Of a stretch of DNA of 41,784 nucleotides, positions 15,190-15,557 are shown piece by piece. The notes under the pieces are model-generated. The model was not told the DNA's origin. It saw nothing but the letters and a program-made list of their open reading frames with translations, and made no database searches. The stretch lies in the IMG/VR virus record IMGVR_UViG_3300000956_000110, positions 1 through 41,784 of that record; one strand, given 5' to 3'. Position 1 is the first letter of the stretch. Each line of letters opens with the position of its first letter. The translations under genes and the position numbers were made by a program. The stretch is from a virus.

Positions 15190-15267
<78 letters not shown>

Positions 15268-15310
15268 CTCCAACCAACGCCAAGTGCCCGCAGATGCGGA
15301 AACCGTCTTT

Positions 15311-15414
15311 ATCGATGTGCCAACCGGTGACTGAGTGGTTTAAGGTTGAAATAGTGCCCATGCCGTGCACGGCGTGCATCGCGAGTTCGAATCTCGCCCT
15401 GTTGGCACATCGAT
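15311..15414 (+). ncRNA. tRNA-like RNA clamped by a 14-bp helix
   Basis: A perfect 14-bp inverted repeat (ATCGATGTGCCAAC, 15311-15324; its complement at 15401-15414) encloses a tRNA-like core. The core has a D-arm-like GACTGAGTGGTTTAAGGT and a canonical T-arm (GCGAG-TTCGAAT-CTCGC, 15381-15397). Between them is a 7-bp hairpin (CATGCCG-TGCA-CGGCGTG). I cannot fit a standard anticodon arm with a 7-base loop. It may be a degenerate class II tRNA, a tRNA mimic or a structured RNA. A conventional tRNA acceptor (CAACCGG/CCTGTTG, one mismatch) is an alternative reading. Confidence 0.55.
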
Positions 15415-15499
15415 GCAGATGGAAGATCCACGTATCGGGCTGAAGCCGTAGATCCGCGCAAGCGGGGAGGATAGGGGAAGAACACCGAGAATCTGCATC
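15412..15499 (+). ncRNA. Structured RNA closed by a 9-bp stem, with GCAA tetraloop
   Basis: GATGCAGAT (15412-15420) pairs perfectly with ATCTGCATC (15491-15499). Inside lie a GNRA hairpin (CCGC-GCAA-GCGG, 15454-15465) and a second small hairpin (GGC-TGAA-GCC, 15438-15447), with purine-rich single strands between. No open reading frame of note is present. The 5' arm overlaps the last three bases of the preceding clamped element, so the two folds are adjacent or alternative. I recognise no known RNA family. Confidence 0.45.
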
Positions 15500-15524: not shown

Positions 15525-15557
15525 AGCCTCAACCCTCACCGGTTGGGGCTTTTTTTT
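15525..15557 (+). terminator. Strong rho-independent terminator of the RNA cassette
   Basis: AGCCTCAACC (15525-15534) pairs with GGTTGGGGCT (15541-15550) over 10 bp including one G-T pair, with a 6-base loop, followed by a run of T to 15557. It ends transcription of the tRNA cassette and lies about 40 bases before the next start codon, leaving little room for a new promoter between them. Confidence 0.9.

Follow-up and report, generated by a model that had tools for sequence, protein, structure and literature searches.

The window analyzed here (the whole stretch of DNA under study, an IMG/VR record of 41,784 bases) carries tailed phage genes for a lambda-type large terminase, a tail sheath, RecT, RusA, and a DnaB-like helicase. 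A tRNA-Met gene and a tRNA-like element, which takes the form of a long hairpin arm, lie with the RusA gene on one side and the minor tail/terminase genes on the other (Table 1). No sigma-70-like promoter was found near the element in the window, which suggests that transcription probably starts further upstream and takes in tRNA-Met and the element as one transcript. Pseudomonas phage PfAn1 keeps the tRNA-Met and the segment CCAACGCCAAGTGCCCGCAGATGCGG, followed directly by a T-run, and lacks the arm; this T-run after CCAACCAACGCCAAGTGCCCGCAGATGCGG resembles an intrinsic terminator, and the window copy of CCAACCAACGCCAAGTGCCCGCAGATGCGG is without it. L100, whose terminase is 89% identical, is the nearest relative that was found; it holds an additional tRNA-Trp between tRNA-Met and the element (L100 2511-2585), and the window has no such gene.

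Table 1. Features of the tRNA-Met and arm region, in window coordinates
Feature	Position	Strand	Basis or remark
tRNA-Met (CAT), CCA encoded	15191..15267	+	ARAGORN; Rfam RF00005, 53.2 bits; directly upstream of the element
Conserved 5' segment CCAACCAACGCCAAGTGCCCGCAGATGCGG	15270..15299	+	Common to many related phages
5' flank CGTCTTTATCG of the arm	15304..15314	+	Kept among relatives (24 viral contigs in a pattern scan); pairing with the central strand is possible
Hypervariable arm 1, 14-bp helix around a class-II tRNA-like fold	15311..15414	+	Helix strands 15311-15324/15401-15414
D-arm-like hairpin GACTGAGTGGTT	15329..15340	+	MFE structure; same segment present in the L112 arm
Shrunken anticodon-arm remnant, 3 bp, UGA in loop	15344..15358	+	MFE structure; inferred from class-II tRNA order
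7-bp hairpin, TGCA loop, one G-U pair	15359..15376	+	Class-II variable-arm position
T-arm GCGAGTTCGAATCTCGC = GCGAG-TTCGAAT-CTCGC, perfect	15381..15397	+	
Central strand GATGCAGATGG	15412..15422	+	Alternative partners are the 5' flank and, downstream, 15491-15499
3' strand ATCTGCATC	15491..15499	+	9-bp complement of 15412-15420; closes a divergent interior without a canonical clamp
Intrinsic-terminator-like hairpin with T-run	15525..15557	+	Likely 3' end of the RNA

The two end strands of the arm, ATCGATGTGCCAAC and GTTGGCACATCGAT, are exact reverse complements, which bears out the perfect, extended acceptor-like helix of 14 bp reported in a first-pass annotation of this DNA; no second perfect 14-bp inverted repeat with a span of up to 160 nt is present in the window. 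The segment 15301-15424 folds at -56.3 kcal/mol compared with -36.0 +/- 3.7 kcal/mol for shuffled sequence (z = -5.4, 0/200), and CCGTCT (15303-15308) can pair with AGATGG, lengthening the helix outward. The D-like arm and the perfect T-like arm of the same annotation were both recovered. Its 7-bp TGCA hairpin also exists, at the class-II variable-arm site rather than in the place of the anticodon arm to which it had been assigned, and the reported lack of a normal anticodon arm was upheld with the qualification that the missing arm is a 3-bp stem whose loop still reads UGA. The arms follow the order seen in class-II (serine/leucine-type) tRNAs, except that the anticodon arm has collapsed, the acceptor helix is too long, and CCA is missing.

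The Rfam tRNA model RF00005 gives the element 19.6 bits, below the curated cut-off of 29, and no fit to a regular tRNA was obtained, in agreement with the earlier view that this is not a normal tRNA gene. The T-arm expected by the model is supplied by GCGAGTTCGAATCTCGC; in place of a 5-bp anticodon stem with a 7-nt loop, the MFE structure has the 3-bp remnant, and in place of a 7-bp acceptor stem with a free 3' NCCA, the 14-bp helix runs on into ACATCG without CCA. An ARAGORN call of tRNA-Ala(tgc) at 15328-15406 was rejected as an artifact in which the TGCA hairpin is taken as the anticodon arm and the 14-bp helix is ignored; spurious calls of this type may also have led to tRNA annotations on similar arms of other phages. 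A blastn search of the element against phages returned short fragments only, mostly T-arms, and the arm had no convincing chromosomal match in a Pseudomonas genome (best E 0.047), where no parent tRNA was found.

The acceptor sequence was considered as the conserved part and then discarded: the pattern GTGCCAACN{70,85}GTTGGCAC returned 96 stretches in viral contigs, and since a T-arm was seen solely in the window's own stretch, the acceptor sequence itself is not conserved. In L100 and in a second relative (L101/L107, terminase 74% identical), the flanks that enclose the window hairpin at 15304-15422, CGTCTTYATCG before and CGATGCAGATG after, surround entirely different long-helix sequences. 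Scanning for the left flank yielded 24 viral contigs, and at the same place nearly all of them have a hairpin whose sequence differs; in a non-redundant set of 37 phage loci, the flanks CGTCTTTATCG and CGATGCAGATG enclose long hairpins that are unrelated to one another. The pairing of these arms is further strengthened by their duplex energies, as the strands of each arm anneal at a mean of -21.4 kcal/mol compared with -9.6 kcal/mol after strand partners are exchanged at random across the loci (n = 37). These energies were used instead of simply counting the pairs at the arm base with no bulges allowed, which separated the sets weakly (6.2 vs 5.3) because many arms have a common bulged A. This bulged A near the helix base (e.g., GGAAAGC...GCTTTACCG in L110, L129, L181, and L190) is possibly a protein-binding or structural motif.

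T-arms are present in 7 of the 37 arms (about one in five) compared with 0.11 expected, an enrichment that, like the others reported here, is approximate since the loci were gathered by sequence patterns, with relatedness uncorrected, and expected matches were derived from simple shuffles. tRNA-like interiors occur, for example, in L111, L112, L118, and L126, and L112, an unrelated contig, holds a similar Ser-like arm with its own long perfect helix; most arm interiors are not tRNA-like. With no T-arm in about four fifths of the arms, tRNA mimicry can be at most a partial account. Mimicry, one of the roles suggested in the first-pass annotation, may hold in some form; the inactivated tRNA that the annotation also offered is not supported as a stand-alone explanation, given the unrelated long hairpins, most without any tRNA feature, that occupy the same flanks in relatives.

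On its right side, the arm is followed in most relatives by GCAGATGAATGCGCAGGCTGATGCGC ... GCCGGAGATCAGCRCCGGCCATCTGC. The structure adjoining the arm, termed the clamp, comprises a closing helix, a hairpin H1 (loop AGGCUGAU), a variable insert, and a hairpin H2 (loop AGAUCAGC), and its two loops are complementary, with GCUGAU/AUCAGC pairing. The full form has a long hairpin arm preceding the clamp, with a 3' strand common to the arm base and the closing helix. Two further scans yielded 92 and 68 viral contigs, blastn at a loose cut-off returned 192 phage records, and 99 distinct clamp instances were extracted. A long arm helix adjoins 51 of these 99 clamps, compared with 36/495 in shuffled upstream sequence. 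Across 38 aligned clamps, double-sided changes affect 9 of the 10 closing-helix pairs, and the covariation score of the structure is 0.270 vs 0.089, a value reached in 0/500 shuffles and missed by slid controls; RNAalifold recovers the same helices unprompted. As the clamps had first been found by the sequence of loop 1, the search was repeated by geometry alone over 4.8 Mb, and it returned 91 places, nearly all of the clamp family, including L118, where both loops have changed together (AGGTCGAT/ATCGAC). A second compensatory loop pair, AGACTGAT/TTCAGT, was found at the plasmid locus L354.

A covariance model built from the clamps (R1) detects clamps with long natural inserts; the scores include 58.5 bits for L100 and 46.2 and 36.3 bits for the two clamps of phage P1, where most matched loci, L100 among them, belong to the model's own alignment and match by construction, and the second P1 clamp (36.3 bits) lies outside it. 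A strict clamp pattern (gap 30-60) was found in 2 of 399 Pseudomonas genomes (chromosomes), compared with 0 in the control. In the window, R1 found no match to an H1/H2 clamp with complementary AGGCUGAU and AGAUCAGC loops; the outer closing helix there is GATGCAGAT/ATCTGCATC, 9 bp (15412-15420/15491-15499). A search with CCGAGAATCTGCATC for relatives of the divergent 3' part gave 73 matches, none with the upstream central strand. In the window, the family is represented by a divergent or reduced copy and not by a full one: the arm, the flanks, the left segment, and the outer helix are kept, and the clamp is unrecognizable.

The strand connecting arm and clamp, which reads GATGCAGATG in the window, has two possible partners by complementarity, the 5' flank and the 3' strand, and the arm helix invades the closing strand in 39 of the 51 clamps that have an arm. 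From these complementarities, the RNA would be bistable, or one pairing may displace the other during transcription.

Comparison among loci reveals how arms and inserts are distributed over a constant framework. The inserts of L162, L165, and L182 are 99% identical and stand beside three different arms; L112 and L128 have a common insert (95%) and different arms; and L152, L158, and L218 have a common arm and different inserts. A whole clamp is nested within the arm of another in L161, and P1-like phage-plasmids have modules in common around tRNA genes, with arms and arrangement differing. Across these loci, the arm and the H1-H2 insert have been swapped independently between phages, with flanks and clamp constant.

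Several other elements were observed near the clamps. A second recurrent hairpin, roughly GCCGG-ATMANGGTAA-CCGGC, lies beside many of them (P1, L247 2811-2840; L121, L128, and L117) and looks like another module type. Another unit resembling the clamp, GTGATGAAGTGCAGCTC...CCAGAAGATAAGCATCTGGCTTCACAAC, is present in P1-like elements (L247 2695-2750 and L350-L355); it has AGATAAGC, the motif of loop 2, and a different loop 1. In Klebsiella phage UPM 2146 (Taipeivirus; L250 1890-5220), about 3.3 kb without annotated genes lies beside tRNAs and contains one clamp together with more structured-looking sequence, including the T-arm-like GTTCGATTCCATGCC, and in the related phage Magnus, tiny ORFs are annotated over the equivalent region.

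Besides phage P1 (two clamps), about a hundred phages carry the core form of the clamp, in many cases next to tRNA genes. Its bearers include phages of Escherichia (P1), Klebsiella (Taipeivirus and SopranoGao), Xanthomonas (Kintu), Erwinia (vB_EhrS_59), Burkholderia (CSP3), Acidovorax (AP1), Aeromonas (ST4), and Pseudomonas (AH02, PAJU2, PS-1, ZC03, PAE2, and Aurca01). A total of 25 of the 99 clamps lie 600 bases or less from a tRNA, compared with 6.6 expected if positions within those loci were random; the 43 tRNAs within 600 bases of clamps are all on the clamp's strand. The two clamps of P1 stand beside tRNA-Asn and tRNA-Thr, and other clamps are located between early genes, before lysis genes, or between structural genes. 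A single cis-acting role is unlikely because these contexts vary (early, late, and tRNA islands); the variation weakens any one cis-regulatory role and does not prove action in trans. A late-operon leader or put-like antiterminator was considered, as several clamps follow promoter-like and terminator-like sequence, and was dropped as a general explanation given the varied context.

At the level of sequence comparison, then, the anatomy of this RNA, its pairing and covariation, the exchange of cassettes, the enrichment of T-arms, and the same-strand association with tRNAs are established. Our preferred reading, held with slightly less than even confidence, is that the window element is arm 1 of a modular structured RNA of tailed phages, a trans-acting scaffold presenting interchangeable decoys or mimics, some of them tRNA-like. 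Such an RNA would be transcribed (in the window together with tRNA-Met, ending at the terminator near 15557) and would act in trans, with its arms serving as interchangeable payloads, decoys, or mimics of host RNAs. The putative targets would be RNA-binding or RNA-cutting host factors, most plausibly defense or toxin nucleases. The window arm may mimic a serine-type tRNA body unable to decode, whose paired 5' and 3' ends should hinder normal end processing, as follows from the biochemistry of tRNA maturation. Decoys are our best guess because of the long perfect stems, the self-locking scaffold, the fast replacement of arms, and the repeated reuse of tRNA parts. A more specific proposal, which we put forward tentatively and with distinctly limited confidence, is a cassette system in which the self-clamping scaffold shows swappable, fast-replaced arms, each matched to a different RNA-targeting defense or toxin of the host.

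The main rival, which we regard as rather unlikely, is an RNA-only scaffold of the GOLLD or ROOL kind, where clamp and loop-loop contact build a multimer or a protective cage, with arms that serve as cargo or spacers and not as decoys. In a striking likeness of setting to the clamp RNA, GOLLD is phage-encoded, lies near tRNA islands, makes loop-loop contacts, and combines a conserved region with a variable region that sometimes holds tRNAs; its linkers can contain tRNAs, and env-38 lies 3' of a Met-tRNA (PMC12286853). ROOL is likewise an extensively structured phage or prophage RNA near tRNA islands, and the tandem and nested clamps of P1 and L161 would suit an assembly of this sort. Against it, Rfam scans at the gathering score and at E-value level matched neither GOLLD nor ROOL, the clamp unit is much smaller (about 85-220 nt), and its kissing contact can be satisfied inside one molecule. 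GOLLD measures about 800 nt, in contrast to clamp RNA modules of 60-250 nt to which it has no sequence or covariance match, and the available text of PMC12286853 describes no interchangeable arm cassettes for it; ROOL measures about 650 nt, has no covariance match, and is without swappable arms in the available descriptions.

A cis-acting leader or processing element, whose central strand would switch between its two partners to govern termination or tRNA processing within its own transcript, would draw on the two-way complementarity of that strand, on the frequent entry of the arm helix into the closing strand (39/51), on the terminator-like hairpins flanking several members, and on the position of several members upstream of late or lysis genes or beside tRNAs. 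We consider it improbable; the context ranges from early regions and tRNA islands to sites between structural genes, and the independent exchange of hypervariable arms is left unexplained. Very little probability is given to a decayed tRNA-Ser gene caught by chance in an inverted repeat, despite the class-II order of D-arm, variable arm, and T-arm, the UGA loop, and the lost anticodon stem: the unrelated contig L112 has a similar Ser-like arm in a long perfect helix of its own, relatives hold non-tRNA hairpins at the same site, and L100 has no intact tRNA-Ser there. A selfish inverted-repeat DNA element (MITE- or REP-like) moving among phages appears the most remote of these readings. Inverted repeats, patchy occurrence, and presence or absence among close relatives, such as the armless PfAn1, would fit it, and it is opposed by the compensatory changes within the helices and the loop-loop contact, by the fixed strand relative to tRNAs (43/43), and by the exchange of interior parts instead of the insertion of one unit.

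Returning to the preferred scaffold with decoy arms, known phage RNAs offer partial likenesses. According to the available text of PMC13096335, Septu cuts tRNA-Tyr in phage T6, and phage tRNAs counter tRNA-cutting defenses; these are also phage-encoded, tRNA-shaped RNAs in tRNA islands, and on that description they differ from the window fold, which has no working anticodon arm or encoded CCA and is locked in a 14-bp helix. The abundant ORF-less RNA of ICP1 is similarly a phage RNA from gene-free space beside the lysis cluster (PMC7567579), and it belongs to another phage group, the likeness being one of genomic setting. The clamp RNA matched no Rfam family and no description in the open-licence PMC literature, and an earlier report elsewhere is possible. 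The novelty would lie in the RNA family and its cassette organization; the broad kind, a large structured phage RNA, has precedents.

These findings describe a structured RNA with compensatory evolution in phages of at least eight bacterial genera, P1 included, which is absent from Rfam and from the open literature searched. A recurrent part of phage tRNA islands has thus escaped notice or entered annotations in the guise of spurious tRNAs and tiny ORFs. Arms that are interchangeable and hypervariable are the expected trace of an arms race, and the presence of the RNA in P1 makes its function directly testable in E. coli. If the cassette system holds true, it would be an RNA counterpart of protein anti-defense islands, present in phage P1.
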